DNA of 64,000 nucleotides, taken from the NCBI GenBank assembly GCA_947034895.1, contig OX344763.1, positions 60,407,093 through 60,471,092 on the forward strand, in the 5' to 3' direction. The position numbers and the translations under genes were made by a program. Shown here in pieces: positions 6,868 to 58,708 of the stretch; the first letter of the stretch is position 1; each line of letters begins with the position of its first letter. This stretch comes from Rhytidiadelphus loreus (Eukaryota; Streptophyta; Bryopsida; Hypnales; Hylocomiaceae). Below the pieces are notes generated by a model that was given only the letters and a program-made list of their open reading frames with translations, was not told the DNA's origin and searched no databases.

Positions 6868-7064
6868 TGTTTGTTTGCTTTTTCGAATCTGCAGTTCTGG
6901 TTAGAATCTCCGTCAGCTACGGAGGAGGCACACAAGCAAAGCTTTGTATATTGCCTTCGGAGTGGAGGCTCCTAAAACAGAGACTACATTTTCGTGGACC
7001 AGACTTCTTTGTGGATTGCTCTAGGATTTTCTAATGTGGGTTGTTTGAATGTGTTTAATGTAAG

Positions 7065-8044: not shown

Positions 8045-9041
8045 CCAGCTTATGGCAAGTAAGATTATATTAATGGATTACATTGCAGTACTGCAATGTA
8101 TACCACTAATATGGTTTTACCTGAAATGTGATGGTTCAACTTACCTTGTACAAACTTGGCAATAGTATAGAGGTGGTTTGACTTGATAGTTTGTTCTATG
8201 GATGTAAGTCATTTGTATTTTGAAGATTTAGAAAATGGATAACAATTTAATTGAAATTTTATCCAACTAGATGATCATTTGGGATAGAGGGAGTGTAATT
8301 TATCCATTTCATTTTCAAAAGAGATCAATAGATAGAAGCTTTGTACTTCTTGTATTGTATTATACATTCAAACTATTGTTTTGAAATTGTCTAAAATAAT
8401 TTCTACAATTGGCTCTAGTTCTTAACTCTCTCATTGATTTGACAAGTGTGAGATTCCAAAATTATTTTTCCGATTACTTGCTTGGAATTGGAAGTCTTAG
8501 TTTGTAGAACTAGAATGGCACAATTCACCTCTTTGAATTTAGTCTACCTGCCTTCAATTGTTAACTCTGTATTTCATCCAAATCCCTAAACCGCCCTATA
8601 ACATCTTTCATGTTCAAAGAGTTTCAATAGAAATAGAACATTCATAACAAAAGTGTCACAAAATTTTAAAAAAAAAATAGCTATACATGAAAATACAGTA
8701 AACATACGTAGTGTGCTTTTATCAGCCAAAATGAATTGAAGCTCAGGAAACAATTCTCTTGCCTTAGTTGTACTTTTAAGTATAACAAAATACTATTTTG
8801 TAGTACATTCGGGGTACAAATAGTATTACAAAATACTATAATTCTAGTATATGTATTTGAGGTACAAAAATACTATCACTCTAATACATTTGAGGAATAA
8901 ATAATATGACAAAATACTGTAACTCTGGTTCATATATTCGAGGTACAAAACTACTCTAACTATAGTACATTTGAGGAACAAATAGTATCCACTAATACTA
9001 GGACAGAGATTAACAGTAACTGCAAGGAAATACAAGAAATA
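8045..9041. other. AT-rich spacer with short degenerate tandem repeats
   Basis: No gene was found. From about 8755 to 9005 a degenerate repeat of roughly 40-55 bp recurs, built on AAATACTAT, TAGTACATTTGAGG and TACAAATAGTAT. Confidence 0.5.
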
Positions 9042-38220: not shown

Positions 38221-39861
38221 AGCTTTTAGTGAATGCATCTGTCAACGGCTGAAAATAGTGTTCCCCTATTTCTATTCGGGGTTCATGAGGAACGTTTGAA
38301 AATCCCGCGCCTTGTTCCCAGGATAACCTTCGTTGAACTTTGCATGACGCGTCTAGCGGCGAAGGTGATCCTCCCCCATTCCCTCATGCTAAACTGTCCA
38401 TTGTCATTTCCGCCATCTACACTCAGAATCCTCCCGCGTGCGCAACTTTGCATTGTCATTTTCACCGTCGTCATTCAGAGTCCTCCCTCACACACAGCTT
38501 CGCATTGTCATTCTCGGCGTCTGCGCTGAGAATTCTAAATCTCTTTTTGTTGTATGCTTCACGTTTGTTGTGGCGATCGTCATTTTATTACGTCTCTACG
38601 GTAGTGAGGTTTCTCAAATTTTTGTACGCCGGGTTGCAGCAGACAAATTATTTGACAAGATTCCGGGTTCGGGTACGCAATACATGTCCCACAATCTCTC
38701 TTCAGTTTCCTCCAGCATTCATGATTCCGTTTTCTGTTGCATGATTTGTTGTTTTATCTCTCATGTGACCTCCGTCATAGTTCGATCCCCGACTCCCCGT
38801 ATCTGTATTGCGTAAGTTCTGAACTTTTGTTTTTCGATTAATTTTCGGTTAGCCTGTTGTTGGAATTTGGAGAATACACGGATTGTGTAGACCTATTGGA
38901 AAGTTTCTAGATAGTACCTGTACTGTTCTGTAGGTTTAGGTATATTTCAGTATTTTCATATCGAGTGCGGGACGCATAGACGTGATTCCGTCAATTTTGT
39001 GCATGACATTCCGTCGCTCATGGGGTGGTCTATGGGAGAGGAATTCCACAATGCCCACCGCATTTTCAGGATTATCATATAAAACCATAATATATGAGCT
39101 CTACGTAAAATATAGAATGGATTTACACTCGAATCGAGTTAAAGAGTGCAAAAAGGGTTGGACGAGGCGGTTTAACTCAACCCGAGTTAAATCATACTCA
39201 GAGAATTAATTACTGAAATAACCTTGATCATGAACTATCTAATGTACCTGTGGTCACTCGTTTAACTCGAATCGAGTTGAATATCCCTTGACTTGAAATT
39301 TTTTTAATACCGGAGGATATTTATATTAATAAAATCCTGGATCCCAGAATATTTAGGCATCTGATTATATATACCTGCAAAAAAAATTCGCAATGAAAGT
39401 TTTACTCGAGTCAAGTTAACAATGTGGTCAGTTGTTTAATTCGAATCGAGTGGACTATCCCTTGACTTGAGAACATTTTAATACCAGAGGATAAATAATT
39501 ATATAATTTTGGATCCCAAGATTTTTAGGCATCTGATTACATATACATGCAGAAGAATTTTCCATTGATATACTTTAACTCGAGTCGAGTGGACTATCCC
39601 TTGACTTGAGAACATTTTAATACCGGAGGATAAATAATTATATAATTTTGGATCCCAAGATTTTTAGGCATCTGATTACATATACATGCAGAAGAACTTT
39701 CCATTGATATACTTTAACTCGAGTCGAGTCAACTAGGAAGGATGTTTAGTGAAATTATTCTTGAAGATAGTGACATGAGCTCTAGATACTAGATTATTTA
39801 ACTCGCCTCGGGTTTAAAATGTCCATGTCTGATAATATGTTTTTTTGCACCCACAGATCCA
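38221..39861 (+). promoter_or_regulatory. Putative 5' region and intron of DUF7869 copy 2
   Basis: From 38395 to 38530 a block of about 57 bp recurs three times (CATTGTCATTTCCGCC, CATTGTCATTTTCACCG, CATTGTCATTCTCGGCG). From 39264 to 39730 there are three tandem units (one of 174 bp, two of 139 bp), each starting with an AACTCGAGTCGAGT-type palindrome and containing CTATCCCTTGACTTGA. The acceptor-like CACCCACAG at 39856, followed by ATG 39862, suggests the tandem array lies in a 5' intron of the DUF7869 gene. No separate protein-coding gene is supported here. Confidence 0.4.
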
Positions 39862-40142
39862 ATGGCTGCTCACCGCCAACCTCTTCAGGAATACTCTTCT
39901 GATGAAGGAGAGATTGAAAATGATACGATACAAGACTTCGTCATTCCAGATTGTGAAGGCATCCCTCGGAGGCTATGGAGCACGAAAATTGTCCTCCTCT
40001 ACAATGTTGATGGAGATGTGGTTGCTGAGGGAATCTGTCATAGCGTGAATTCCGAACATGTTGTGGGTAGCACTAGTTCCCTTGGAGACTCCCTTGTCGC
40101 CGTTCAGATATCCAAATCACTGCGGCCTACTTAAGTTCCTGA
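39862..40142 (+). pseudogene. DUF7869 gene copy 2, 5' part (interrupted by the giant hAT)
   Basis: The encoded peptide shares CEGIPRRLWSTK, LYNVDGDVV and CHSVNSE with the N-terminus of copy 1 (17620-17350). Homology continues through SKSLRPT and VPD up to 40142, where the hAT element begins. A TAA at 40132-40134 falls where copy 1 has Asp. GTTCCTGA at 40135-40142 is the left target duplication. The rest of the gene resumes at 58701/58709. Confidence 0.8.
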
Positions 40143-40355
40143 CAGGGTTACCAGGACGTCCAGATGTGAGGACGTCCGTCTGGACATCCAACGTCCGCGT
40201 CCGGACCCCCCCGGACGTCCAGTTTTTCTGTTTTTTACCTAGGGTAAATTAAAAGTTACCTTGCTCGGGGCTTCCGACGGCCTAATCGAACGGTCCGATC
40301 GGGTATGCTCTTCCGACGGTCTGATCGGATGGCCACATCCGATCCGATGGCCTGG
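40143..40355. repeat. Left terminal and subterminal motif array of the hAT element
   Basis: After the terminal repeat come GGACGTCC/GGACATCC units and then two exact TCCGACGG with GATCGG/GATCCGATGG variants. Subterminal arrays of this kind are known transposase-binding regions in hAT elements; binding here is inference. Confidence 0.7.
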
Positions 40356-40359
40356 TTTA

Positions 40360-41938
40360 ATCAAGCCCTTTTCCTAACAAAAGTATAATGTATGAGTGAA
40401 AAAAATTTAGAAATAAAAAATTTTAATTCTGAAAAATCTTTGTGTTGCCTGGTCTCCCAAGTTTTGAGTTACATGGGCATAACTTTTGTAGAAGGGTACC
40501 GATTGAGAAAAAAAATTATATTTTCACAAAGGTTTTCCATTTTTCTATCTTAAAAAAAAATTTAAGAAAATCAGGAGACAAATTCAGCCCATAGGTATCA
40601 ACCTGAAATCCATTTGTCAACGGAAGGGACACTTTGTCCTTTAGAGGTTCAAATGAGCTATGAAAAGAAATTGAACCCATTGTTGAACTTTGGTATACAA
40701 TAAGTTTTGTTTAAGGTCCCTATTGACGGTCATGGAAATTATTCTAACAAAAAGAAAAAGAAAAAGGTACAAGGTCTAAATACTAAATAGCGTCGAAATG
40801 CACGATGGTACTATTTTGTTAGGGTTTTATAGAAATGCCATTTTTTTAATTAACAAGGATTTAGGCCCAAAAATTAACCCATTCTTGTACTTTAGGGAGT
40901 ATTGAAAGAATCCCCATTTGAACTCATGAAAGTAATTTGACTTCGAAAAAAATTAAAATTCTTAAAAATTCTGTATCGTTCCCAACTATAGAATTCAACA
41001 CATTTTTATTCTAAGCATTTCTTTCTTAAGCCCTAAAGGACCGAGCCATTTTCTAGGTCCAAAATCACTGAAAACTGCCATTCCAGCTGCGATCATTCAC
41101 GATGTTGTGAAAATGTTTTCTTTGAAAATGTAACCGTAAGATCTTGAAGTGAACTTGTATGAGAGGGTGTGGTAAACTTTTTGTGAGTTTTCACCGTACG
41201 GATAGAGAGATATTTGCATTCAAAGTCTTTTTTTTTTAATTTTTTTTTTCACTATGCCCCAGAATTTCAGATGCCTTTGACCGCCTCATGCTCAATTTTT
41301 TTGCACTACACACCATAAAATTAAAAAATTTTCTTGTAGGTATTGAAGTTGGGCATATGCATACCAATTTTCAAAGAAATCCAACACACCTAACACCTCC
41401 AAAAAAATTTTGCAATGCCATTATGCCACAATGTCCCAAATATTGACAATGCACTAAGTCATCTTCGAATCAGTTTTCCCACCACATACTTTGAGATTTT
41501 GAAAATCCGAACGATGGATACAAAGGCATACTTATATTTGACAAGCGAGAAATTTTTGTTTGGGAAAATTTCAAAATCTGAGATTCCTATGACCTTCTGA
41601 AGTTTGAAGCTGCTTGGACGATGGGGTTTATAAAGCTTAAAATGAAAACAATCTCTACACACCCTTGCTAATTGCCACCTCAGCATTCAACAACAACAAG
41701 TAGTGCCCTTTTCATTCAAGTCATATGTATCTTTCATAGTTTCATGTGACAAAAAATCATAAGCATTACTTACTCAAATACACCGAACTTTCAAAATGTA
41801 TAATTATCATATTCCACATATATGGTCATACATCAACATTGCATAATTAGGCACTATATAGTGTGCACGCGTACATCCTCATTCTATATTTACTACATAC
41901 CTCTATAGTTCTATGCTACTATAAAGTACGTTGAACTA
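40360..41938. other. AT-rich interior of the hAT element, no gene recognised
   Basis: Only chance frames are present between the left subterminal array and the 3' end of the kinase gene. Confidence 0.5.
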
Positions 41939-43435
41939 CTAATATGAATGGCGGAAGTGCTCATCCGGCACAAGCCAATTGCACCGACCGGAAAAGAAAT
42001 TGATGATGTGAGACAAATCGCCACGGTAATTTGAACCTTTACTGCAAGGCCACTCCATGTATGAGTGAAACATAAGGGCCAAAACGTGGTGACTCAACTT
42101 CGTCAGTTCAGTTGATTCCCGATGCAACTTGTAGTATTCTTCAGACATGCAATCCTTGTTGATGCGTTGAGCGAGTTTACAAACCGCATATTCTTCTGAT
42201 GCACGTGATAGATTTGGAATGATTGACCCATCTGCATCTCTTTTGTGCACATATGCAATCTTCGGGTCCACCCACCACCTCTTTCTCAAAGCCTCCTCCA
42301 TGTCACTCGCATATGTAAACGTGTACAAAGACTTCATTGGTTCAGAAGCTACGGTAGTCATGCCCCAATCGCAGACTCCAATGTACACGCGTGACTCGTC
42401 TTCAGGAAAGTGAAACATTATGTTGTCTGGAGAGATGTCATTGTGAAGATGTCCAGAAACGTGCACCGCATTCATGATGTGCAATAATGCCCATGCGAGT
42501 TGCGTGCGCTTCTTCCTAAATCGTCCGAGACGGTAAGCTTCAATGAACTCTACCTCTGTTGGCCTCGAATAGTGCAACCGAATGGCAATGTTGTCTGAAT
42601 AATCATTATCCAAGTGCATCATGTGCCGTAGTGTTCCGCCATTCCACCAATACGAATACCCTTCATTTGTTGTTCCATGAACTGCAGCAAACCGTATAAC
42701 TCCAGGATGTGGAATCTGCACTGCCATTGACTCGTTCTGGTGTTCCAATCTCGCAAGATGAGGCTGTGTGCGGTGTTGATTGGATAGCTTTGCTGCAAAC
42801 TCCCAAAATGTAGCTATCCCTGGACACCCTTCAATTCGAACCCTACGAATTGTTGCATATCCACCCTTCATGGTTTTTTGGTCTTGAGCGATTACTCGTG
42901 TTGTGTCGGGAAGCGCTATGAGGTGTTATCTGCCCCGATCCAGTTCAGCCACTCCATCAGTGCTATTCCACCAACCCAAAGATCCTCGTCTGTTACGGCT
43001 CTTTGCAAACGGCTTGCATCGTGCAACAAACAAGTCAGCTTTCAGAATGACTTCACGAAAATCCTCATCATTTTCCCGATATTGAGAGCCATACCTTGCT
43101 AGCACCATTGATGCATTCCACAATGCATCGTGGACCCTATTCTCCAAGAATTTTGGAAAGCCTTTCTTCTCCGTCTCGTGGTGCCATTCTGGAATGCTAA
43201 GCGCATTCATCATCAGTTGCCACATGTCCGCCTTGAATTTTTGCGAGCACTCCTCGTTGTACCTAATGTATTTGTTGTGTAGTGACATCGTGGTTTCCGA
43301 CTCATAGAAATTGACGATCAACTTGATCAAAAATCTCTTGCATGCATCAGAGGGAATGTCCCTACTTGCCTCATTGTGTGAACCTCCTTCATGCTCCATT
43401 TGTTTCCTCTTTGCAGCCTTCTTTGTTCGTGGCAT
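41939..43435 (-). pseudogene. Divergent protein kinase carried by the hAT element, one in-frame stop
   Basis: The frame starts at ATG 43435 (MPRTKKAAKRK, a basic NLS-like start) and has 499 codons, interrupted by TAA at 42928-42926. The first ~165 residues are a helical domain of unknown function. After the stop come a glycine-rich loop (GGYATIRRV), a candidate ATP lysine in EFAAK, the PHPGVIRF region after the C-helix, the catalytic loop HLHNDISPDNIM (HND in place of HRD, with catalytic Asp and Asn kept), and CDWGM in place of DFG. All catalytic residues are thus present in an unusual form. Because the stop falls just before the N-lobe, either the gene is dead or a downstream ATG at 42871 gives a kinase lacking the N-terminal domain. 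Phosphorylating the transposase or host factors would be speculation. The gene has its own upstream motif array at 43622-43850. Confidence 0.7.
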
Positions 43436-43621
43436 CGTGATGAACTTCTTGTACGAATGAATATTCGCAAAATGAAATGATAATTTCAAGTTCAAGTGAA
43501 ACTCGAACCAAAACTGGAAAAAATGGCAATAAGGGGCCCCCAAAATCGCACTCTTGCTTTTTTAAGAAGAGGAACCAATGGGGGCATGAACCACCAAGCT
43601 CTCCGCTTCACTCTTGCAATA

Positions 43622-43850
43622 TGCAAGGGAGAAAACAAAAGTGAGGATCGGACGGGCCTGTCCGACTCTCTTATACCTTTCCGATGCCCTTTTCCGACGC
43701 ACGGTCCGCGTCGGAAATCCGACGCCCACGACGCGGCCGACAGATCGGACGGCCGATCGATCCGACGGCCCCCGCGAGGTGGACGGGCTGCCGTGCGACA
43801 GATCGGACGGCGCGGCAGTTCGACAGATCGGATAGCTCCGATAAATGGTA
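43622..43850. promoter_or_regulatory. TCCGACGG-type array upstream of the kinase gene
   Basis: The array holds several ATCGGACGG(G/C) and CGACAGATCGG units, one exact TCCGACGG, and TCCGACGC variants, in GC-rich DNA 190-415 bp 5' of ATG 43435. It is the same motif set as at the element ends. Confidence 0.6.
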
Positions 43851-43859
43851 TTTTCACCC

Positions 43860-45930
43860 CTTAATCCTTAAGGGTGAGCATGCCAAATTTGGTCGTTTTA
43901 AACTGAATTTTGGAAATTAAAACACTTTCCTAACCTCATTTGACTGTGAGGTGTAAATGAGATGTGAGGGCACGGGAATTTCGCTTCCAATGAGCCATTG
44001 GCCATAAAATTTGGAGCAATAATGAGTTATCTATGGCAATTTGAAGTTGGGATTTCTAAAGTTTCAAAATACACTGTGGGACATGTTTCTCTATCAAATT
44101 TATTTGTATATAACGAAAGGGAGCATGAAAACTTCACCATAATGTTCATTATAATTTTTCCTATTTTCTATAAAAATTTCATCATAAAGTGAGCTCTTTT
44201 GTAATTACTACGATTTTTCAAAGATAGAAACTCTAGAAAATCTTATAAATTTCATTTTTTTCCCAAAAAATATTAAAAATTCAGATCTGATAGAAGACAT
44301 GAATGGTTATTTGTGAAAAATAATAACGTAAATTAAATGATAAAATTTTGATATGAAAATTTGATTCCAAAAGAATTCAAGAGTTTGCTTGGGGCTCCTT
44401 AGGCCCTAAAGGGTTAATCCTTTACTTCCTAAGAAGCCCATTTTCGGCCTCACATTTTTGCAACAATTTCGAAGAGTTTATATGGAGATTTTTATTTATT
44501 TTAATAAAAATATTTCTTTTAAACCAATGCATTCAATATTCTTTTTCTTTTTGTTTGAAACAAATGGACAATTTGCATGCAATATTCTTCACTCAAGCTA
44601 ATGATATAATGAAATTTTTCATTTAGATTATACTTTCCACGATACGGACATTCAAAGTTTGTAACTTAAAATCATGAATTAGCATACCAAGTGGAAGAAA
44701 AGAATTTCTTTCAAGATAATCCTATGATAGCCCACAAAACAAGAAAATCCATAACTTTCGCATCATGAATCCAATTGGAATGAATCAAAGCATCCCATTT
44801 AGAAAAATCCAATATAATATACAAGAAAAAAAAATCATTTTTGATTCAAATTTCTAGTGGATTTTTTGGGTTGCTCGGTCTCACCCATTTTGAAGTTAAT
44901 AGGATATGGTGCAAAAAAATTTGCGCACGGACACCAACAAAAACATAATATATATATTCCCTAAAAACTCATCAATTTATCTATCTTATGAAAAAATTCC
45001 TGAAAATTTCAACAAAAAATGAGACCACCCAAAATTCATTTTGGCCCCCTTTACTTGACAAAATCACAAAATTCGTTAAAGGAGGAGGTCCACAAAACAA
45101 AATTACACCATGTAAGGGACGCAACTAAATTTCAAAGAATTGAAACAACTTCAAGTATTTTTCAAGGAAATTTCATTGATATATTGAGAAAATTGACTTG
45201 TAAATCAAGTCCTTTCCAATTATGTACATGAAGCTTCATGGAATTAGTTATGAAATTTTGAATGCAATTTTGGAAATAGAAAAAATAGGAATGCACTTAC
45301 ATTAGTTAAATTTAAGCACTCTTTCTTTATGTTTTTCATAGGAAGAAGAGGAAGATTACCAAATATTGAAACCGTGACTCCAAACATTTTTGTCCATCAC
45401 AATTCACAAGGCTCAAGGTGTGTTGGACATAGGTGTACTAGTAAGTGACAATTTACTTTATGTAGGAGGGTCTACAAAATATAACATGCTACTTTATGCT
45501 TTTTTTTAAATAAAAATTAGGTAACAATAAGTTTGAAGCACTTCAATATTTTCCATGGACATCGAGGATAAACAATTAAACATGCCATCTACGATGGTGC
45601 ATTGATATTTTCACATTCGAATGACAAAATGGTAAAAGCTGGGCCATTGCTATACTTAGCTTCCAAAACACCATGGCTTGATCCATTGCATAGCAATGGC
45701 ATTCAATAATACCATGAACATGAGAAATCTATCATTCTAATAATATATTTCAATACATCGCAATTGTAGCGGTTTTGCATTGTACGTGACGACTGACGAC
45801 CACTCATTGACACCATTACACTATGCTTGCTACATTCTATATTGCATCATTGTATGGAAAACAACTAAATCTAAATTTAGAGCCCATATTGTAAGACAAA
45901 CAATACAATAGTGTATTAGTGTTTGATTCG
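43860..45930. other. AT-rich interior, no gene recognised
   Basis: This is a very AT-rich stretch between the kinase promoter region and the 3' end of the minus-strand gene at 45934. Only chance frames were seen. Confidence 0.45.
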
Positions 45931-45933
45931 GCT

Positions 45934-46938
45934 TCATTCGGAATCTGAATCCGTGTCATCTCTCTGACTTGGGCCTGTAGGACCACCACCATAAACACCG
46001 AGGTATGGTCCTCCGCCATAGTAGTCGGGAACATATCCGCTTTGCCCACCTCCTTGTCCATAATTTGCGGAGGAAGGACCTCCAAAAGTTGGAGGAGGAA
46101 TTGAATCACCGTGGAGTGATCCTCTTTGAATTGAACCGCCATAATAAGAGCCTCCAACGTTTTGAGAGCCATGTTGGGTGTCATGGCCATAGTGTGAACC
46201 ATAGGACCCATGTGGTGGGTCATATGCACCACGGTCATGTTGGTAGAATCCATCATACCCATCTTGTCGACCACGGTCCTCTACGCTTCTACGCATCGCT
46301 TCTTGCATTTGTTGTTCGTATTCAATGTCTTCTCGATCTTTTTTACGCTCGTGCTCCTCTCCCAATGTCACTGGTGCTGGAGCTTCACCCTCATCACCGT
46401 CACTCGACCATTCATCTTCTCCATGTGGCACCACAACTGCAAGAAATCCAAACTGCCCTCGATTGGACCACTCTGGCTGGCAATCACTTGCAGCAGTCCA
46501 GCTAGTATAAATCATTGCATCATTCCGATTCAGACTATCCACATGTTTCCCATAAATGGTACGCCAATCCACATCTTTGTGGAGTACAATCTCTGCCCAA
46601 ACCATAGCCATGTTAGAATAGTTCATTATATTAGGTTTGGAGTCACGTAAACCCGTTGAATGCGTTACTTCTTCGTAACGGTGAAGAAAGTGTCGGCTCA
46701 TACATGTGGACATTTGTCCTTCCCATCGACGAACTTGGCCTTCAGCACGTTCTCGTGACCACATTTTGGAGAGGTGAGTCATCTTGACGTACTTCTTGCA
46801 TGTGGTGCAGTCCCAAACTTTCTTTGGCTCTTCTTCCCATCCATCTTCAGCTACGCAATTAGGGTTTTCCCAGTCAACCCAATTCATATCTTGAGATTTC
46901 CCTTTCTTACTCTTACTTGATGGTTTAGGGCGAGACAT
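45934..46938 (-). CDS. hAT-cargo protein: shared CK-VKM-H domain plus G/Y/H-rich tail
   Basis: The start is ATG 46938 (MSRPKPSSKSKKGKS, NLS-like), giving 334 residues with no internal stop, the only fully open cargo gene. Residues about 30-130 share a pattern with the N-terminus of the 50378 protein: CKKYVKMTHLSKMW here and CKQFVKMYHIDKLW there, then HFLHRYEEV / HFVHRSDEV, then NYSNMAMVWAEIVLHKDVDW / NYSTASMVYAELIFGRKVDW. This is a paralogous domain I do not recognise. The C-terminal third is low complexity (SYGSHYGHD, GGSYYGGS, YYGGGPYLG), a prion-like composition often linked to condensates. Its motif array lies 5' at 47200-47530. Function is unknown; it may be an accessory to transposition. 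Confidence 0.65.
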   Translation of the reverse strand: MSRPKPSSKSKKGKSQDMNWVDWENPNCVAEDGWEEEPKKVWDCTTCKKYVKMTHLSKMWSRERAEGQVRRWEGQMSTCMSRHFLHRYEEVTHSTGLRDSKPNIMNYSNMAMVWAEIVLHKDVDWRTIYGKHVDSLNRNDAMIYTSWTAASDCQPEWSNRGQFGFLAVVVPHGEDEWSSDGDEGEAPAPVTLGEEHERKKDREDIEYEQQMQEAMRRSVEDRGRQDGYDGFYQHDRGAYDPPHGSYGSHYGHDTQHGSQNVGGSYYGGSIQRGSLHGDSIPPPTFGGPSSANYGQGGGQSGYVPDYYGGGPYLGVYGGGPTGPSQRDDTDSDSE

Positions 46939-47199
46939 GATAACCTTGATTACAATGAAGATAATTGATGTCCGAATTTTTCCAAAAAATTGCACCAAGT
47001 GCACCAAGTGCTTCTCACTTCAAAATTCAAATGCAATGGAGTGAAATGGTTTTCTAATTCACAGTTCCTCGCATCCAAGAAATTATTCAAACCACATCAC
47101 TTAAAACCATCAAGTATCCAAGCACAATCGTTCACACACCAAACCGAAAGGGGCGCGCAGAGCCACAGATTCACATCGGGCACTGGAAAACCCACTTCG

Positions 47200-47530
47200 G
47201 GAGGGAAACGGCTGTGGAAAAATGAGGCGTCGGAAACGCTATTTATGGCTTCCGACGGCGCTTTAGGGTCCGTCTGAATCGGACGACCTGTTTTCCGACG
47301 CCCCCATTGTGCGGCCCGAAATTGTCGCACGATGGATCGCACGGTCACCGAGAAAGTGTGGACGCACCAATATGCGGACGAACAGCTCGGACGGGGCGTC
47401 GAAAGCTCGGACGGGGTGTCGGAAGCTCACACGGGGCGTCGGCAAATCGGACGGGGTGTCGGTTTCGGCTTTCGGGACCGTCGGAAGGTCGAACGGGGCG
47501 TCGGAAGGGCGGAGGGGCCGTCCGGCGAGG
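47200..47530. promoter_or_regulatory. TCCGACGG-type array upstream of the 46938 gene
   Basis: The array contains TTCCGACGGCG, GACCGTCGG, repeated GCTCGGACGGGG(C/T)GTCGGAA units and TTTTCCGACGCCC. It is GC-rich, about 260-590 bp 5' of ATG 46938. The unit CTCGGACGGGGCGTCG recurs four or five times in tandem. Confidence 0.6.
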
Positions 47531-47904
47531 AGAATTTTGGAAAACAAGGGAAGTTTTGCCCCTTTCGAAATTGCAGGCTTTGCCCTGCAGCAGGGGCAAT
47601 GAAGGGGGCAATTCAGCATACCCTTTTGGGGCCCCCCTGTGAGCACGTAAAAAATTTTGGAACTGAACCGTACGATCTAAAATGTTACTTGTAACACACT
47701 AAACCCTTGTATAACATGTAGAAGGAAAATAAGAAGAAGAAAGAAGTACGGAATTTTTGAATTCCCAAATTCATGAGGGTTTTGCTATGCCCTGGAAAAA
47801 TTAGGATCCCATTGCTTCGAAATGCGTAATTTTTTGGATAAATCATGTACATCCTCTAATTCTCTTTCTTGAAATAATTGTAGAAATTATTGAACTACGG
47901 TTAT

Positions 47905-48474
47905 CTCGGGGGGTCATTTAGAGTGTCCATTAGAAACCAAGTGCGAACAAAACTTTGGACCCCCTATATATTTTTTGAATTTTAAATAAAACAAAATTAA
48001 AAAAATATGAATAGATTTTCCTACTTTAAAAGTTTATATTTTGAATTATTGATATTTGTATTTGTTAATAATAATTAGTTACAAATTTTTGAAGTAAAAT
48101 GATACACTGTAGAATTGAAAAATAGCTTTCACACCCCTCTATTATATAAGAAAAAATTGTCTAAAAAATGAACAAAAAATTCCTAAAAATAACTCATTAT
48201 TGAAAGCTCATTTTGAATTGAATATTGACTCAATGGTCATCTAAATGTGTCCTCTATAATTATTTCAATTGAAAAACATGCCATTTTAGTTCATTTTCAA
48301 GTTTCAACCTCTTCTAGAAATCATTTCATATTTTATTTGAGCTGGAAGTTTTGGCAATAAAAAGCTATAGTCATTATTAAACAATGTTCAAAATTTTAGG
48401 TTGAAATTATAGTTTATTAGAAACCACTTGTTCACACGTGATTTGTTATAGTAGAACTAAGTGCACCCCCCAAG
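47905..48474. mobile_element. MITE copy 1 (570 bp), nested in the giant hAT
   Basis: The left end is CTCGGGGGGTCATTTAG and the right end CTAAGTGCACCCCCCAAG, forming inverted repeats. The flanks ACGGTTAT (47897-47904) and ACAGTTAT (48475-48482) are an 8-bp target duplication with one mismatch. The whole interior is closely similar to 62602-63165. There is no coding capacity. An 8-bp duplication fits the hAT superfamily. Confidence 0.85.
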
Positions 48475-49740
48475 ACAGTTATGGCCTTATGGGGCACTTA
48501 CAACTGCATTTTCTGAGTAAAGAAAGAGAGATTCCATAATTGTTGACCATGTAAAAGTAGAAAAACTACCTAGAATAATTTATTTGAAGAAATAATTATT
48601 TTTTGCTCAAATGTGCCCACTCTCTTTCAGTTCCACAAAAACCTGTAGAACTTTTTTTCTAATTAATAGTTATCAATCTCACTAGCAATTGCATGCAGAA
48701 ATGAACTCTAAAGATTTATAGATTTATTTTGGCAACACTCAAGAACATGCTCTAATAGGCTAGAACTTTGAATAAAGAGATTATCCATAATTCTATAATA
48801 TAATATATTTTTGTGCAATACTGCAAGGTATGAAAGCTTAACATTTTGTCATACATATAATTAATGAAACCTAAATTAATAGATTAATGAATTCAAGTTT
48901 AGAAAAATTGGTGAAGGCCTTAAAGTTGGCCCCTCTCTCCCCCTTCTCAATGAAATGAAAAAATATATCAATATAGGGTATATGGTTCAAATTTTCCATA
49001 TTACAATGTCATGAATTCATGAATGAGTAGTACATTTTACAAGTAAATAAAAAACTTTCAAATGATCATATGTGACGTTCTCCTTCTATTAATTCTTGTA
49101 CATGAGTGATCATCATATTCAATTGTCAATTTTGTGGGACAACCTTTCACTTCTGCAATTTCCACGGTGCCATGTAATAATTCATACCCGGAAACATAGA
49201 AATGAATAACTAATTAGTCGACAAGGTTCACATGTATAGTACATTTAAATTATCACATGTAGACTACAAGTTCAATGGATCAATTACACAATGGTTTCTA
49301 CATTCAAATTACATTTCAACCAACATTTCCACATTGACTTTTTAAATCATATCTTAAAATCATAGAAGAAGTCATGTACTTTGTGGATCCAAAAAAATAA
49401 ATGTCTTCAAATTGCAATGTAATTATGTATCCATGTAACCATGTAGAGGGCGAGCCAAAATTGCTACTAGTGGATATTGGGATGGTGGGAATACTCGGTG
49501 AAATCGTAAAAGTGATGCCGCATGCTGCACCAATTTTTTGTTGAGCACGTGAATATTTTATATGGAAATTTAATAATTTGTAGGGTTTAGGGTTTAGGGT
49601 CTAGGGTCTAGGGTTTAGCATTAAAAACAGTCTCACAATGTAGGGAAGAAAATGAACAATAAGCTTTCACACATTGGATGCTTTCTACATTTCATTGATT
49701 ATTTTTTACAGTGATTTAACTATTTCAAGGATCCGTTGTT
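48475..49740. other. AT-rich interior with telomere-like tract
   Basis: No gene was recognised. A TAGGGTTTAGGG-type tract with GTCTAGG variants lies at 49581-49620. Confidence 0.45.
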
Positions 49741-49754
49741 TGAATAGTGCGTAT

Positions 49755-50170
49755 ACAGTTGGAGGATGACAGTTCAGCAGGTCCGTGCAGAGGAGACGAT
49801 GGCCTGATCGGAGACCTGAAGACCTAAAATCCATCTGACGGCCTAATCCGACGGCCACGGCCTGTTCGGTCCGTTTGATCGGGTGCAGGCGACTTCGAAA
49901 CTTGGTCTTCCGATGGCCCGATCCGATAGCCCGATCCGATAGCCTCGGCGTCTTCGATCCGATGGTAGCGTTCGATCCGACGGCCTCATCGGCCGGTGAC
50001 GTCGGATCTGACGGCCTCTTCCGACGCCCTCATCGGATGGCGACAACCTGTTCGGTCCGCCCGATCGGACGACCAGGTCCGATCCGACGGCCCAAAGTCG
50101 GACGGATCGCGGTCCGGAACCGAACTAGTATTAGGGTTGGTTTTGGACGGCTATATGATCGGACGGGCCC
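49755..50170. promoter_or_regulatory. TCCGACGG-type array upstream of the coiled-coil/RING gene
   Basis: The array has three exact TCCGACGG plus many CCGATCGG, GATCCGATGG and TCTGACGGCC variants. It lies 210-620 bp 5' of ATG 50378. Confidence 0.65.
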
Positions 50171-50377
50171 TTCATTTCTTTTCACTTCTTCTCTCCAAGC
50201 TTGCCAAGTCAGATGTGCTACTGTTGCCTCTGGCGCTAGTTGCTCTTACTTGGTGGAGAGAAGGGGTCCAACATATTTTATTACGGTGTGACTTTGGCAG
50301 ATTTAAATTACCTACACGTATATTTCAATTGACCGAATTTTTTACTTTGAATTGCTCTTCAATTCAAAGTACCAAGC

Positions 50378-53300
50378 ATGGCCGCGGAAGGTGATGGAGG
50401 GGCTATTGGGACGACTTCAACACAACCTCCACCGAAGAAAATTAAAACAAGGGGGGCCGGACATGCGTTGCAGTATGACATTTTAGATGATCCGAACATC
50501 AAAGCGGAGCCTGACTGGGAGAAAGTGGAGGCCGAATATTGGAGCTCTAAAATGTGCAAACAATTTGTCAAAATGTACCACATTGACAAGTTGTGGCCTC
50601 GGGATTGCCACGCAGCCCACACAAGATATTTCAATGGTAAGCCGTGGACTTGCAAGGATAGTCATTTTGTACATCGATCAGACGAGGTGTGGAAGGCCCT
50701 CTTTGGCAATAAGGCAAGGAGTAAAGGATACATAAATTACAGCACGGCATCTATGGTGTATGCAGAACTCATATTTGGTCGGAAGGTGGATTGGAGCACG
50801 TTTCCAACGACATCGCAATTGCCGCTTCAACTTCCGAAAAATCAAAAGGATATTCCCGATTTATACAACCACGGGGCACAAACGGTTGAATCTAAAATAG
50901 TATTAAAAAATACTAGAACACCTACAATGAAGGTTTCACAGGGTGTAGGCAACGCAGTACAGTTGGACCCCATACAACTAGGAGCGGAGGCCACCAATGC
51001 CTCTACGGGAGGTGTATTTCGGAAGGTCAATTTCAAGGATCCGGAGACTTGTTTACCCACCTCGGTTCATGTACCAATCACAGGGGAGCAAAGCATTGCT
51101 CCAAACAAGCACGACCTCGTGAAAGAAGTTGCCCTCTCTTCCTCGTCGCGAGAAGACATGGATGAAGACAAAGTTGCAAGAGCAAATGCTACAATTGAAC
51201 GGCTTATAGCCAGCGATGCTCTCGATAGTTTGAAGTACGTTCCTCCAAACGTGGACTCGCCAACGCCGCCTAGTCCAATATTGAGCCCGATCCGTGAAGT
51301 TCAACCGTCAGGTCTGTTCGTAGAGCGACTTCAAAACGTGGCAACGACCTCCAATATTGATGGCGAGGAGATTGTGCGCAAGTATCCGCTCTTGTGCACT
51401 TTAAGAAGATTGCAATATGTAGGTCAAATTCCAAATCCGAAGCATTTTGAAATCATACTTAGGTGCGGAGTTGAGTACCCATCTCAAATGGATGGATCGA
51501 GAGAAGGTGAACCCGTGAACGAGGCCGAGTGCTCTACGGCAACCGAAAACAAACTTAGGCTTCACGATTTTGTGACATCCGCTCAAGCAATAACATGTTC
51601 TGCTGAAGCTGTAGCGGAAATGGCCCCGTCGGCTATGGAATTGGCCAGAAATTTATCCACATTATCGCATCCACTATTGAAGGGTGGATTGGCTTTTCAC
51701 AAGTTTGCTAGTGGAGCGCTAACACTTCTTGATGAGAAGTACAACTACTTGAAGACAATTGTGGAGTTGGAGCAGAAGAATGACGAGTGGAGTAAAAAGT
51801 ATGGAAGGGTCGTTGAAAATTGTGAGTCATTGGGAAGGCAATTGGTGGCGTCAAGGAGGAAGTATAGCGAAAAATATTTGAAAGAACGAAATGAAAAAAA
51901 GGGCCTCTCTACAGTGGAGATCCAACTACCGAGGTCGCAAGAAACTCAAGAAAGCGATCAACTCTCTCTTCCATTTGAGAAGGCCAAAGCAGTGGAGGAG
52001 CTTGAGACCAGAAAGGTGGATGAGGTTCCAACTTGGAGCGAGTTGAATCGAAGATTGAATGAGGTAAACCAAGAAAATGCCCTTCTTCAATCGAGGTTGG
52101 ACCGGATGAAACGAGTGGAGAACATGGATGAATGTCTACTGGCGAGCGGATCGGAGTCTCGGTGGTTGACATGGATACAACAACTTCAAGACAAACCGTC
52201 TTTAGCATCTCGGGCAATGATCGGGGTTCGCACCCTTGCAATGAAGTCGGATGAAGATTGCAATGTCGTTGAGGTTGCTTTGAAGAAATTCAAGAATGCG
52301 GTCAAGCAACATTCTTGGGGGTCTATGCCAATGACATGTTGGGGAGACATGGATGCCATGTACGAGCGGTTGAACCACGCCAAGAAGGAATCGCTAGCCC
52401 ACAATCGCGACATCAATTGAACTTTTGAAGTAGAAGAAGGATGGACTCCTTACACAATGCTTTCAGCACACATCAAGAAGAACGAGAAGATAGTTGTGCA
52501 TGGTTCTAATCCAGGCAATGAAATGTTGAAGGGTCATTGTAGCATTTGCCAAGGTCCTTTTGGGCCTGAAGGAGCCTTCACCATGGGCCATTGTCGCCAC
52601 GTTTTTCATATCAAATGCGTTGTGCAAGCATCTCTGTTTCGATCCGCTTGTGCCGAGTGCTGTTCTCCTTTGAGTCCTAGGTTCTACGAGATGTTTGGCA
52701 TCTTGGAAGGTATGCCCTCCAGCCACGAATACAATAGATGGACTCTTCCACTTGAGCAAGGGCCATACAAATTTCAGAATTATTTGCATTGGGGAAACCC
52801 CTCATATGAGATCCGTCCGAACAGAAGTATGAATTGTATGATGCATCCATGCAACCGGTGGATTCCTTCATGTGGATGACCCAAAATATGGAAGTGGAGT
52901 TGCGGGCTTGTGCCATTGATGATGGCGAGGCTCGTGAATTGTTTTGTCGCAGTATGGGAGGGCATTGGAGCATGCAACACCATAAATTTTTCCGGTTTCC
53001 CGAAAAAGAAGTACAGAAAGGGCCAGATGGCAATTGGATAGAGGTGGAGCATCCTCTTGGCTTCAGTGAACAGTACGAGGCATACAATCACGTTCCCATA
53101 GGCAGGGCACTATTCTTATCTAAGCTGGAAGAAGCTGCATCAATTCGTGTTCAGGTGGAAACGGATGGAGAATCAAACAAAGGGGATTCGTTCGTGGAGG
53201 TGGCAGGGGCATTTGATAGGAGGGTGGCCGACATCATAGGTCAATGGAGGGCGTTCCTATTGGAAGGAGTCACCGAAGGGTTTAGGGTAAACAACCCTAG

Positions 53301-53625
53301 TGATGACCATATGGTGAATGTGTTGGTAAATCGAGTGGACGTTGCTCTGAGAGCCTTGAAGGCGATGGATGTGGATTTGACTCCGAAGCGCAAACTAAAG
53401 CGGAAGATTGAAGATGACGATGACTATTCTCCGGAAACAATACGACAATTTGTCGTTGTTGACAGGGCAACCAAATCAAATCGGTTCTTAAGCTCAACAA
53501 GCCCTGGGGGAATTTCTCGTCGCGGAAGTCCAAGGATTGCCGCTCAAGTGGCGCAACGCAATCCAGAGGGGTCCTCTGGTCTGTCTGGTGGTTTGGGAGA
53601 TGGCAACAATGATAGAATTAAATAG
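50378..53625 (+). pseudogene. hAT-cargo coiled-coil/RING protein, one stop and one frameshift
   Basis: The first 680 codons (50378-52420) are open. They begin with a shared domain (residues about 45-135; CKQFVKMYHIDKLW and NYSTASMVYAELIF), followed by a linker and coiled coils at about residues 460-560 and 590-640. TGA at 52418-52420 is followed in the same frame by a clear RING finger at 52538-52655: CSIC, CRHVFHIKC, CAEC, i.e. the C3H2C3 pattern. Between about 52805 and 52834 the frame shifts by one base to the last open part (52834-53625), which carries a helical region and a bipartite NLS-like TPKRKLKRKIEDDDD. The order coiled coil then RING then charged tail mirrors the gene at 2238. RING proteins normally recruit E2 ubiquitin enzymes; an accessory role for this element is inference. 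An intron instead of a frameshift is possible, but no good GT-AG pair was seen. Confidence 0.6.
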
Positions 53626-53777
53626 AAATGGACCAATAGATCTATTGCAATAGAAGAAATAGAACTCTATACTCGATAGACTTTTGTTTTAATGTCACGA
53701 GGTGAAAATAGTAGTAAATAATTGTAATCACGGCATGTCTTGTTTTGCCTTTAACATCTACGTATGTATGTCTTTTT

Positions 53778-53915
53778 TATATATACATATATATAAATAT
53801 ATATAAATATATAAATATATATAAATATATAAATATATATAAATATATAAATATATATAAATATATAAATATATATAAATATATAAATATATTTATTTAT
53901 TTATATTTCAATATT
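53778..53915. repeat. AT microsatellite (ATATAAATATAT)n
   Basis: This is a near-perfect run of ATATATAAATATATAAAT-type units. The frame reading repeated IYKYIN across it is an artefact. Confidence 0.9.
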
Positions 53916-54119
53916 CATGATATGTATGGATCTTTCAATGCATGCTAGTTTGTTGAATAGGTTGGTCAAATGTTGCTTTTTCTTCTTTCGCTATGATATA
54001 ATGATTTGTTCATAGAATATGTAGTATTTTTTCCATTGTAACATTATTTCATTGCAAAAATATGAACTCCAAATTTTTTTGGCACAAAAGGCTCTAATCA
54101 ATTCCTACAAACTTGTTAG

Positions 54120-54260
54120 TATTGCTTTGCACAACTAGTGTTGTGCACCACTCACATGCTTGAAGGTATTAATCAGAGCCGGGATTTGAACCTGTGACCT
54201 CCCCAATTGGAAGAAGGCAAGTTCAAGTGTTTGGATAAGCCTTGGACACTTGTGCTGAAA
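54120..54260 (-). repeat. tRNA-derived SINE-like fragment
   Basis: Read on the minus strand, CACAGGTTCAAATCCCGGCTC contains an exact RNA polymerase III B box (GGTTCAAATCC). The surrounding GGAGGTCA and downstream text resemble plant SINEs. No complete cloverleaf or poly(A) tail was established. Confidence 0.4.
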
Positions 54261-54314
54261 GTGTGAAACAGTTCTATTTGAAACTGAACTACGAGAAGTC
54301 CTGAATCCGAATAA

Positions 54315-54450
54315 AAAGATCGGACGGGCTGATCCGACGGCCAATTCGGACGGCCAAGTCAGATCAGACGGCCTGTTCCGACGGCCTGTTCCGACGAGCT
54401 GGCCCGATCCGACGGCCCAATCCGACGGAATGTTCGGACGAGATGGTCAA
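54315..54450. promoter_or_regulatory. TCCGACGG-type array upstream of the transposase
   Basis: This is the densest array: four exact TCCGACGG within about 115 bp, plus TTCGGACGGCC, TCAGACGGCC and TTCCGACGAG variants. It lies 355-490 bp 5' of ATG 54804. Confidence 0.7.
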
Positions 54451-54803
54451 ATTGAATGGGCCATTCTGGGGAGAATGAGTCCGTTGGTACTGTTTTAAAA
54501 ATTCATCTTTCTGAATAATGGTCAGCGCCACCTGTATTCAGCTGCAAAGTATAAGTAGAAGAAACAAGGCGTATGATTGTATGAAGGCACTCCAAATCCA
54601 CTGAACACTACGATTTCCAAGGGCTTGGAGCTGCAATTTATTTTGTGTCCCTTGCTTGGTAATGCATCGTTTGGTGGAAGGGGGGCCTTGAATTTCAAGG
54701 CTTTGTGCACGACCCTAAACCCAATTTTAAACATTGGTTCACTTGTGTTTACATTTTCAAAAACTTGCGAATTTGAAGAAGTTCAAGTTTGGAACTTGTG
54801 ACC

Positions 54804-57800
54804 ATGAGCAAGGATTTTGCCTCTTGGTATGTCGTCCTTTCGGCGAGTAAAATACAATGCAAGGCTTGCAACAACGTGTTTTCAAAGAAAACGAGCTGTA
54901 TGTTGAGTCACTTAGGATATGAATCGATTCCCGGTTCTCGTGATATGGGAGTGAGTTTGTGTCCCAAATTGTCATCGGAAACTCGAAGTCTATTTCTTCG
55001 ATGCAATGGGGCATTTCCACGAAGACCTGTTCGCGGAAATGTGGATGTCAACAACTTGCCTATGGTTGAAAGCGATATGTCAAATGGGAGGGGCATGCCA
55101 TGTTCTACGCAAGAAGATTCTTGTACAACACCGGAAGAAGTCGTTGGAGGGGGTTCCGAAGTAACTCCAAGTATGCAAACATGTAGCGGACGTGACATTC
55201 GCAGGGCCTCAAGCAGTAGGCCTCAAGCAGTAGGCCTCCAACACAAAGTAGGCTTTTGGATGGTTTTCAAGAAACAAAAAAACAGAATTTGAATGCAGTG
55301 TGGGCCAATTTCTTTTATGCGGCAAATATACCCTTTTCAATGGCCCGAAACGTAGCTTTCAGAGAAGCGGTGAAAAAACCCTCCGAGTATGGTACGTCCT
55401 ACACTCCGCCATCATATCATGATCTACGGCATAAATTGCTTGATCAAGCCAAGGCAGATGTCGTGGGGAAGGTGCATAGAAGGACCGAAGACAGCGTCAA
55501 GAAGTTTGGAGCAACATTGTCCATTGATGGATGGAGCTCAGTTACAAACCGTCCACTGATCAATGCCATGCTTGTATCTTTAGCGGGTGAGCAATTCCTT
55601 GGATCGGTGGATACTAGTGGGGTGGAAAAGACAGCACAATATTTGGCCACAATTTTAGAAAAATTCATAAAGCAGGTGGGTCCTACGAATGTGGTGCAAG
55701 TGAGCGCAGACAATGCTCCAGTGAATCCGGCAGCATGGAATTTGGTAACGTACAAATATCCACACATTTTTTTTCAAAGATGCGTGGTGCATGCCTTGAA
55801 TTTGTTGCTCAAAGATTGGGGAAAGGAGAAATGGATTGAAGAGTCGATAAAAAGAGCCCAAACTGTAGTGAATTTCTTCAAGAAAAGACACATGCCACTT
55901 GCTATATTTCGGAAGTATGAGACAAAGTACAGTTTGTTGAAGCCGGTGGAAACAAGGTTTGCCTCTGTGTTTATCATGATTGATCGTTTGTTGGAAGTCA
56001 AAAGAGCATTGCAACAAAGTGTGGTGGATCCACAGTGGGTGGCATATGTGAATACACTCAACGACAATGGCAAAGCCAAATCTCGCACGAAGTCTCGTGA
56101 TGTGAAGAGGTTCATTCTAGAGGAGCATTATTGGGACCGGTGGACAAATTTGCGGGAATTGGTGGCCCCCGTTGTATATGGTCTACGTGATTTGGATGCA
56201 AAGACGCCATGCATGGGTAAGGTGTTGCATATTATGAGGAATTTAGAGAAACATGTCCTTAGCCTAGAAGGGCATCTTTTTTGTTTGGCAACAAACCTCG
56301 CCAAACCATTGGAGCGATCCTTTTTCAAACGCCGTGAAATGGAGGAGACAAATTTACATTATGCAGGAGCTCTTTTGAATCCATACCTTCTACATGATAA
56401 GGATCTAGCCGACGACCAAGATGCAATGGACGCATGCAAGCGTGTTCTAATGAAAATTTGCAAACAAGGAGAGTACGCCTCAGTGGTAAAAGAATTTGTA
56501 GCCTTCCGCCATAGGGAACCTCCGTTTCACAACATGTTGAACCCGGATGAGCAACAATTGTCGGCGCATGCTTGGTGGGATTTTGAAGGTGCATGTGGGA
56601 AGCTCATTGCTCCAATAGCCAAGCGAATTTAGGCACAACCGGTATCCTCGTCTTCATGTGAACGAAATTGGAGTAGTTATTCTTTTGTTCACAACAAATC
56701 TCGGAACAAGTTGACAACGCAAAGGGCGACAGACTTGGTGTATGTGTACACCAATTCCAAGGTCTTGGCAGCATCAAAGGAAAATGATGAGAATAAGTGG
56801 TACGATGACAACGTGGATTCGGAAGATTCAGAGGGGTTTATCTCGGACGACGAGGAGGATGGTGGGTCAGTTGGGCCTCTATTGGATGACGAAGATGCCA
56901 TGAATTACGACGGGCACAATTTTGATGATGAAATGTTCGATAGTCCAAGTCGGCCCAATGAAGATCTTCGAGCCAATGATCGAGACATCTATGACTTTCC
57001 CTTGGATGAGGATAATGATGGGTATGATGAAGATGTACCTTCCATAGCTAGATTTGTGGATGGAAGTGGATTCATGAGTAGCGAAAAAGTTCTATCGGAA
57101 AAAGAAGTCGCTTATGTAGAGGCCAATGAGAGAACGATTCCCAATGATGGGACTCAAAGAATGGATGAAGATCTTTTTCCACTTAAGTCTCCGTTTAGAG
57201 GAGTGTTGCGAGCGGAAGAAAATGACAAACACATCGGCAAGGGAGGACGTGAGCCTTGGGAGGTGAATGTCAAAATGAACGTTGGCAACACGAGTGTTGA
57301 GTCAACCATTGTATTGGCAAGTGCGAACAGTGGTCACCCAAATATTCCAATCCCTAAGGCAAATGAAGCGGAGAAGAATGTTGATCTATGTGTGGTGGGG
57401 TTTAGAAGTCCAATTTCGTGCATCAATGGAGAAGCCAAGAAGGAACTCATGCAAGATTTTGAAGTACCACCATCTAGCATCCCTCCACGTGCACAATTGA
57501 AAACCCCTAGTCAAATTTCGGATGGCGTTGGGAGCTTAGGGCTTGGAAAACGGATTGCAAATATTTCAAAAGAAAGGCGGCCTAGTCAAGGTATTTTATC
57601 ATCCACGGACGATGACAAGGATGAGACATTGGCTTCAATGTTCATTCGGCATTCTCGTAATGCACCACCACGACGGCCCCCAACAATGTCAGTGCCTAAA
57701 CCACAATCTTCAATCTCACCGAAGATAATCATTCATGGAGGCAGTGGAGGGCCCTCAACAATAAAATTAGAGGGCGGGGGATCACCTAGAGCCAATAAGA

Positions 57801-58141
57801 AGAGAGTCATGCAACCTTTTGCAATATCCCTGTTGAAAAAAACAAGAGCCATTGGAAACCCTCTTGATGCACATCCACATGTTTCAAAGAGGAAAATGAA
57901 AAGTGTTGTTGGCATTAAGGAACAAAATGGGAAATCTTTATTAAGAGTAAAAGAAGAACTCAAAAAGGCCAAACGAAGAAGAAGCCTTTCATCCACGCAA
58001 GTACAAGAGGGAAGAACGTCATGTCTAGGCTCTTCATCAGATGATATGGAAGACACATCCGACGACGAAGACGCAAGATTGGGAAATGGGTGTGAGAGTA
58101 GTGGGACAGAGGTGAAAGGAGATTTTGATTACAATCCTTAG
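54804..58141 (+). pseudogene. hAT transposase with BED finger and long acidic tail; one frameshift, one stop
   Basis: The start is ATG 54804. A BED-type finger follows (C19-x2-C22-x13-H36, then C53). The frame changes at 55205-55232, where GGCCTCAAGCAGTA is duplicated in tandem; 14 bp accounts exactly for the shift into the frame that opens at 55256. The core shows ATLSIDGWSS (first Asp), VQVSADNAPVN (second Asp), RCVVHALNLLLKDW (the C-x2-H motif) and, near the end, SSSCERNWSSY with the RNKLTTQRATDLVYVYTN dimerisation part that defines the hAT C-terminal domain. A TAG at 56630-56632 falls just before SSSCERNWS. After the dimerisation domain the same frame stays open for about 460 more residues, acidic at first (DDEEDGGS, DEDNDGYDEDV), then basic (KKAKRRRS). 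hAT transposases usually stop soon after that domain. As it stands the copy cannot make a full transposase. Confidence 0.85.
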
Positions 58142-58499
58142 AAATAGAAAGGACATAGGCTTAAATGTTCATGTGCTCATATTACATAAAGCATAGATTG
58201 TCGTACTGACAATTGATTGTTAGAGACTTTGATTGTAATACTCCTAAACTTATTGATGGTGGTAATACCATTATTTTTGAAGGGGGCACTTAACCAAAGA
58301 TGATTTCAATCCAAAATATCAATTGATTGTGTCATTTGTATGTTGCTTTTCTACAATGAAGCATGATATACTGCAAGATGATGAAAAAAATTAAAAAATT
58401 AGGCTTCATACTTGTGGTAATTGAAATGCTTTTGAAAGGCTAGAGGATCATGATGATATGATTGTTAATCCTGTTTCAACCAGGGTTGCAATTCAGGAG
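58142..58499. other. Short AT-rich spacer to the right terminus
   Basis: No gene was recognised. CAGGGTTGCAATTCAGG at 58483-58499 is an internal copy of the terminal sequence, inverted relative to the right end. Confidence 0.5.
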
Positions 58500-58700
58500 G
58501 ACAACTGCGACTGCGTCGGAATTCCGACGGCCCGAGGCAACGTCGGAATTCAGACGCCGGAATTTACCCCGAGGTAAATCGGACGGACGGCTCTGTTTTA
58601 TCCAACGTCCCCCGCATCCGCCACGTCTGGACGTCCTCGCGTCCGGATGTCCGCTTTTTGGACGCAATTTTGGGCTGGACGCTCCAATTCGTCAACCCTG
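58500..58700. repeat. Right subterminal array and terminal repeat of the hAT element
   Basis: The region contains one exact TCCGACGG, GTCGGAATTC twice, AATCGGACGGACGG, and GGACGTCC/GTCCGGATGTCC units mirroring the left end. It finishes with CAACCCTG. Confidence 0.7.
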
Positions 58701-58708
58701 GTTCCTGA

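Follow-up and report, generated by a model that had tools for sequence, protein, structure and literature searches.

Transposable elements of the hAT superfamily, among them Ac, Tol2, Hermes and the plant DUF659-type elements, usually carry one gene in a few kilobases. Their subterminal repeats are bound by the transposase, and a BED zinc finger at the N terminus is common among them, not universal. Enlarged cut-and-paste elements have been reported in the CACTA (En/Spm) superfamily, in which Chondrus crispus elements of 16-20 kb hold 4-5 open reading frames (ORFs) (Kojima 2013, as cited in the available text of PMC6431247). VANDAL Mutator-like elements encode VANA, VANB and VANC, and VANC carries DUF1985/DUF287 and no kinase or RING domain in the available part of PMC5735166. 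For the 14-kb fungal ToxhAT, a non-autonomous Tc1/mariner-like identity with a TA duplication is now proposed (PMC12506042, seen in part). The word hAT is absent from the main text of a giant-transposon review as far as that text was available (PMC6431247). Here, a stretch of 64,000 nucleotides from the moss Rhytidiadelphus loreus (the window, C3:60407093-60471092 of the 407-Mb assembly G000) was analyzed. It contains a hAT-type DNA transposon of 18,558 bp that encodes a transposase and three other genes, as the original prediction had proposed. That proposal was supported and its limits were correctly placed, and it extends to a lineage with more than one family: the copies of this element (family 1) and a second, diverged family (family 2). 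We are largely confident that they represent a multi-gene cut-and-paste hAT lineage with selected extra genes; this confidence does not extend to the role guessed for those genes.

Boundaries, copies and target site

The element occupies positions 40143-58700 of the window. It begins with the left terminal inverted repeat CAGGGTT (40143-40149, plus strand) and finishes with AACCCTG as read on the plus strand (58694-58700, the repeat on the minus strand). It is flanked by a perfect 8-bp target duplication, GTTCCTGA, at 40135-40142 and 58701-58708. Both the ends and the duplication had been predicted and were borne out at these bases. The left repeat was exact in 8 of 10 family-1 copies, had one mismatch in the other two, and was the same in both family-2 copies read; the right repeat was exact in all ten family-1 copies. 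The inverted repeats measure 7 bp in family 1 and 10-11 bp in family 2, and are thus short, as in other hATs, whose repeats range from about 5 to 27 bp (PMC12506042, seen in part). The left (40143-40392) and right (58451-58700) subterminal regions are rich in GGACG/CGTCC, with 8 motifs per 250 bp each. Across seven elements examined of the 12 read, the density was 7-14 per 250 bp at each end versus 0.35-0.98 inside, these being raw counts without a shuffle control. We liken this crowding to the transposase-binding subterminal repeats of known hATs. In several copies, a variable tandem array with units of about 70-80 bp adjoins the left end and recalls the VANC-bound motif arrays of VANDAL elements.

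Other copies were sought through both ends; candidate numbers in these genome searches should not be read as copy counts. When the right-hand 1 kb was searched (best 40 of 359 candidates scored), the matches terminated at query position 1000-1005, corresponding to 58699-58704, in all 39 scored places besides the window. In the left-end search (best 40 of 2950 candidates scored), many matches began at the predicted first base (query position 9); others began deeper inside the element, owing to variation of the left subterminal part among copies. Pairing the scored places (40 for each end) gave 13 same-strand left-right pairs 17.7-24.3 kb apart, the window included. The window and nine copies fetched from the other 12 pairs formed the family-1 comparison set.

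All ten copies agreed in their ends and in their four genes, which stood in identical order; copies ending elsewhere, which would have told against the predicted boundaries, were looked for, and the copies terminated at the same bases. At the expected bases, every copy had its own 8-bp duplication, perfect in eight copies and with one mismatch in two. Where the left end was mutated, as in two copies, we located the duplication by seeking the right-hand 8-mer adjoining that end. The copies were 17.7-22.4 kb long, and their aligned parts were mostly 95-98% identical to the window. Over the four genes they differed by 1.7-2.7%, with private changes of 0.7-1.0% per copy; changes were mostly C to T or G to A, and gene breaks were mostly private to single copies. 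From these differences, the ten compared copies are judged to be recent (about 2% apart) and to have decayed mostly through C-to-T changes.

The element interrupts a DUF7869-family repeat gene, whose 5' part lies at 39802-40134 and whose 3' part lies at 58716-61262 (ORFs 58716-59186 and 59187-61262), both on the plus strand. When the flanks were joined into a 283-nt query (best 40 of 71 candidates scored), uninterrupted matches of 281-286 bp with 89-94% identity were found at 16 places, and 20 further places matched at 68-70%. The original prediction had suggested looking for empty sites with a single GTTCCTGA, and a single GTTCCTGA was present at L041, the sole empty site read base by base. 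These places are precise empty sites as expected for a hAT, and they are paralogous, not allelic. The interrupted gene had also been predicted to rejoin in frame and in register with another copy in the window (copy 1). Register across the junction was retained (tblastx, 104 aa, 55%, query 143-454, junction at 342). An open frame was not, as three stops lie within the joined frame: TAA at 40132-40134, TAG at 58713-58715 and TAA at 59184-59186. L041 has the TAG in common with the target, and GAA replaces its first TAA. These stops and the TAG common to L041 point to a target that was a decayed or multi-exon repeat copy; it is not demonstrably an intact gene. The hAT element, its copies and its gene set stand as originally read, the open rejoined frame does not, and of the four genes in the window copy, three are decayed.

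The interrupted gene is a member of a repeat family found in the window (14864-16870 and 58716-61262) and at further genomic places. At G000:C3:82075670-82104460, about 28.5 kb of unknown DNA interrupts a DUF7869 copy at a different point (query 185-190). A full-text literature search found no paper on DUF7869. Between 2238 and 17266, the window may contain another multi-gene mobile element. ORFs there encode Pre-SET and SET histone-methyltransferase domains (7283-8041) and DUF7869 (14849-17266, minus strand), and a further one (2238-4031) gives a weak RING-like match.

Four genes shared by two families

The transposase gene (54804-58141, plus strand) was uninterrupted in copy C5_14.2, where it encodes 1107 aa with a putative BED-like finger, DUF659, a hAT dimerisation domain, a D-D-E triad with CxxH and a long C-terminal extension. 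In P0004, DUF659 scored 123.7 bits and hAT dimerisation (PF05699) 34.0 bits (cut-off 21.4). The BED finger (PF02892, cut-off 20.6) scored 22.6 bits in the window ORF and 16.7 bits in P0004. The family-1 motifs SIDGW (D237), SADNA (D298), CVVHA from 322 and SSSCERNW (E615), which we take to be the D, D, CxxH and E of Hermes, recur in family 2, with STDNA as the second. The best PDB matches were Hermes (E 0.059) and other transposase chains, none of them significant. The window copy is broken: 14 additional bp follow the BED part, and a TAG stop lies at 56630-56632.

The kinase-like gene (41939-43435, minus strand) encodes 498 aa without interruption in copy C5_9.9 and has an in-frame TAA at 42926-42928 in the window. 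The protein-kinase motifs (catalytic Lys, HxD...N, DxG) are present, and the catalytic Lys, HND...N and DWG were kept in both families. In an alignment of 18 proteins, including 17 of 39 homologues, K366, N482-D483, N488 and D506-W507-G508 (P0001 numbering) were invariant and H481 was nearly so. Pkinase scored under its cut-off in P0001 (20.6 vs 31.7 bits) and matched at E 0.01 or better in 17 of the 18 members. The 39 homologues in the protein collection showed 28-75% identity. Two were named from the moss Ceratodon purpureus, one of them representing 126 member sequences. These were the only homologues of the extra genes bearing a plant name, most being without an organism name. One kinase homologue filed under a Bacilli bin is taken as contamination; no relatives were found in the viral contig collection or in prokaryote genomes. 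The kinase tree, built from 31 rows after removal of homologues no longer than 450 aa, was poorly resolved, with 15 of 28 inner branches open.

Gene 2 (45934-46938, minus strand) and gene 3 (50378-53625, plus strand) were uninterrupted in copy C5_9.9, with 334 and 1084 aa, respectively. Gene 2 is the one gene open in the window; gene 3 there is broken by a TGA at 52418-52420 and, near 52791, by a 1-bp frameshift that is absent from the nine other copies. The two proteins share an N-terminal domain of about 130-150 aa (30% identity over 128 aa, E 3e-19), followed in gene 2 by a tyrosine/glycine-rich tail and in gene 3 by a long predicted helix (residues 399-518, low confidence) and a RING finger. 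A zf-C3HC match of the shared domain was weak and is a lead only (3 of 26 members, best E 0.0054).

The eight zinc ligands of a RING-H2 finger can be recognized in gene 3. Seven were invariant in all nine aligned proteins, and the eighth was His in eight of them; Tyr occurred in C5_9.9 (P0003) alone, and the window copy has His. A profile search of PDB with gene 3 matched RING finger protein 24 at 2e-7, and the Pfam RING models were below cut-off in P0003, with one just above it in the window ORF (27.5 vs 27.0 bits). The gene-3 product is probably an E3 ubiquitin ligase. Homologues in the protein collection numbered 56 for gene 2 (34-68% identity) and 8 for gene 3 (34-48%, 7993 best candidates scored), and gene 3 had no relatives in the viral contig collection. 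The gene-3 tree of 10 rows left 4 of 7 inner branches open and was poorly resolved.

Family 2 was found with a distant gene-3 homologue as query (best 41 of 2700 candidates scored), and two loci were read. They hold elements of 14,734 bp with the duplication AGTACGGT and 18,135 bp with CCGATAGA, both duplications being 8 bp long and perfect, and both elements have CAGGGTTGAC ends. The same four genes are present in a rearranged order: gene 2 lies on the plus strand left of the kinase in family 2, and on the minus strand between the kinase and gene 3 in family 1. The four genes stood together in 10 of 10 family-1 and 2 of 2 family-2 copies read, which answers the concern that the internal genes might occur as unrelated neighbours outside such elements. 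Of the 41 gene-3 places scored, at least 19 had a family-2 transposase 791-1218 bp downstream on the same strand. Four of the 41 were probed, and all four had a kinase and a transposase at the expected offsets, 95-99% identical to those of family 2. When the family-2 transposase served as query (best 42 of 1575 candidates scored), 14 of the 42 places were without an internal stop.

Protein identity between the families was 67.6% for the kinase, 68.9% for gene 2, 50.1% for gene 3 and 60.1% for the transposase. The ratio of nonsynonymous to synonymous divergence (dN/dS, NG86) was 0.20 for the kinase, 0.29 for gene 2, and 0.33 for both gene 3 and the transposase, these ratios being rough because dS was high (0.71-1.33). 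YN00, which gave values for gene 2 and the transposase only, returned 0.31 and 0.25. Differences between the families were in excess at third codon positions (p 3e-15 to 3e-5). On this evidence, all four genes are judged to be under purifying selection between the families. Apart from the four genes, only two short stretches of DNA aligned between the families. One of about 105 bp (54600-54703, 89-90%) lies upstream of the transposase gene and is conserved above the genes themselves, and the other of about 159 bp (43511-43664, 78-79%) lies upstream of the kinase gene. Both are possible promoter or regulatory sites.

Nested insertions of about 3.4 kb and about 5.2 kb were seen in C1_65.0 and C5_14.2, respectively. 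The former (locus L017, around 6316-9747) has a 643-aa open frame and sits inside gene 2. The latter consists of other DNA and lies where the window copy and C1_6.98 have some 675 bp (44949-45624 of the window, element 4807-5482) that are missing in 8 of the 9 fetched copies. A nested or recombinant element may be present at G000:C3:43647585-43655723, where 2.5 kb separate a right end of family 1 from a transposase of family 2 on the same strand. A repeat with 91-93% identity occurs inside the element at 47908-48474 and outside it at 62606-63165, and is probably a separate small insertion.

Proposed roles and rival explanations

The extra genes are considered old, selected parts of the element, as judged from their conservation. 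Their proteins must have benefited the mobile element, since they survived the family split, as nearly all non-coding DNA did not. The transposase would bind the element at its CAGGGTT ends and at the subterminal repeats rich in GGACGTCC, excise it and reinsert it with an 8-bp duplication, as in ordinary cut-and-paste transposition. The three other genes would act on behalf of the element. The RING protein may pair with the small protein that has the same N domain and recognise a target in common with it, be it element DNA, the transposase or a silencing factor of the host. The same pathway may be modified by the kinase-like protein. A putative ubiquitin ligase with a same-domain partner and a kinase-like protein would fit a regulatory role. 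Our leading guess, a tentative one, is that this module counters host silencing or transposase degradation; it is ranked first because VANC in VANDAL elements provides a precedent (PMC5735166, seen in part).

A less probable guess is that the module directly helps to transpose 18 kb of DNA. The extra proteins would then be parts of a transposition machine, for example a complex holding the distant ends together, and not anti-silencing factors. The length of 18 kb, long for a hAT, suits this explanation, as do two proteins with a shared domain and the long low-confidence helix in one of them, which would fit a multiprotein assembly. On the other hand, enzymes such as a kinase and a RING E3 have regulatory and not structural functions, and well-studied hAT transposases act alone; we hold such a machine to be rather unlikely.

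Several observations weigh against a selected multi-gene lineage. No copy had all four genes open (0 of 10 in family 1 and 0 of 2 in family 2), and no autonomous copy was therefore seen. Within family 1, shared variants gave a ratio of about 0.3 for gene 2 (10 variants) and gene 3 (50 variants), and of 0.95 for the kinase (16) and 0.84 for the transposase (46); for these last two genes the comparison is uninformative because the variation is recent, star-like decay. To these are added the high dS, the partial coverage of the second dN/dS method and the raw motif counts given above. As for the structural models, gene 2 was modeled confidently in its N domain only (block predicted local distance difference test score, pLDDT, 83-96 over about residues 21-150) and had no PDB fold match (best E 2.0), and the gene-3 model was poor (mean pLDDT 46.8, mostly under 50). 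Outside this genome, the sole hint is that a gene-3 homologue (P0005) and a gene-2 homologue (P0056) are each listed on a 17,649-bp contig, which suggests linkage of the two genes in another organism.

Capture of gene fragments by hATs is known, and the locus might be an ordinary hAT carrying Pack-type pieces of host genes as functionless passengers. The low-scoring resemblance of the kinase to ordinary protein kinases, the near-neutral decay of single copies and the unconstrained shared kinase variants within family 1 would agree with this, and Pack-MULEs are an established case of capture by DNA transposons (PMC6431247, seen in part). However, the same three full-length genes recur in two families with dN/dS of 0.20-0.33 and rearranged order, full-length homologues exist elsewhere, and frames of 498, 334 and 1084 aa are uninterrupted in one copy. 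Captured fragments were rejected on the evidence of the copies and the between-family dN/dS, and we regard them as improbable. Nor do the nested insertions in C1_65.0 and C5_14.2 make it plausible that a hAT merely inserted beside or around other repeats, so that its genes are present by chance. The order of the four genes and the ends that bound them are identical in all ten copies, and each copy has its duplication. This agreement led to rejection of a nest, whose chance we put as very slight. Size and gene number would also suit an element that derives from a virus or resembles Polintons and has a hAT-like integrase (range from the available text of PMC6431247). The 8-bp duplications and CAGGGTT ends speak against such an origin, the kinase and gene 3 lack relatives in the viral contig collection, and no polymerase, ATPase, protease or capsid family was detected in the gene ORFs scanned with Pfam; the probability of such an origin is close to nil.

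The multi-gene cut-and-paste lineage is retained. More speculatively, it might be a bryophyte-wide and long-lived lineage of giant hATs whose common ancestor already had a kinase, a RING E3 and its partner as a conserved module for self-defence or regulation, which would let an 18-kb element multiply in spite of silencing, comparable to VANC in VANDAL elements and built from different proteins; we hold this to be possible, with doubts outweighing confidence. A hAT lineage keeping a kinase, a RING protein and an N-domain partner under selection would indicate that cut-and-paste elements can evolve multi-protein programmes, and it would offer a concrete protein set for asking how a DNA transposon evades host control.

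Comparison with described systems

No description of a multi-gene hAT was found in the full-text literature on multi-gene, giant or moss hATs, a coverage that leaves out most subscription papers and therefore leaves novelty unproven. CACTA (En/Spm) elements have CACTA ends and a 3-bp duplication, and the CAGGGTT ends and 8-bp duplication found here place the element outside that superfamily. In the giant-transposon review as available (PMC6431247), the Chondrus crispus CACTA elements are the nearest precedent, being likewise enlarged cut-and-paste elements with several ORFs. They belong to another superfamily with different ends and duplication.

Mutator and VANDAL elements have a MULE transposase and 9-bp duplications. 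In the present element the duplication is 8 bp, and no MULE domain was detected in the gene ORFs scanned. The likeness to VANDAL lies in a transposase accompanied by non-transposase proteins, in arrays of short target motifs and in the precedent for an element-coded anti-silencing protein; unlike here, VANDAL belongs to the Mutator superfamily, and the VANC domains differ from the kinase and RING (PMC5735166, seen in part). ToxhAT, formerly named as a large gene-carrying hAT, differs by its TA duplication and proposed Tc1/mariner affinity (PMC12506042, seen in part). Polinton/Maverick, Teratorn and Starship elements are also large multi-gene eukaryotic elements, but they use other integrases or recombinases. 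The gene ORFs scanned with Pfam contained no protein-primed polymerase B or retroviral-type integrase, as would be expected of Polinton/Maverick, and no polymerase, viral or tyrosine-recombinase domain.

The features of the element are those of the hAT superfamily: an 8-bp duplication, short CAGGG-type ends, D-D-E with CxxH, a C-terminal dimerisation domain and repeated motifs near both ends, to which a BED-like finger may be added. It differs from known hATs in its length of 18 kb versus a few kilobases, in three extra genes under apparent selection, and in about 450 additional aa at the C terminus of its transposase.

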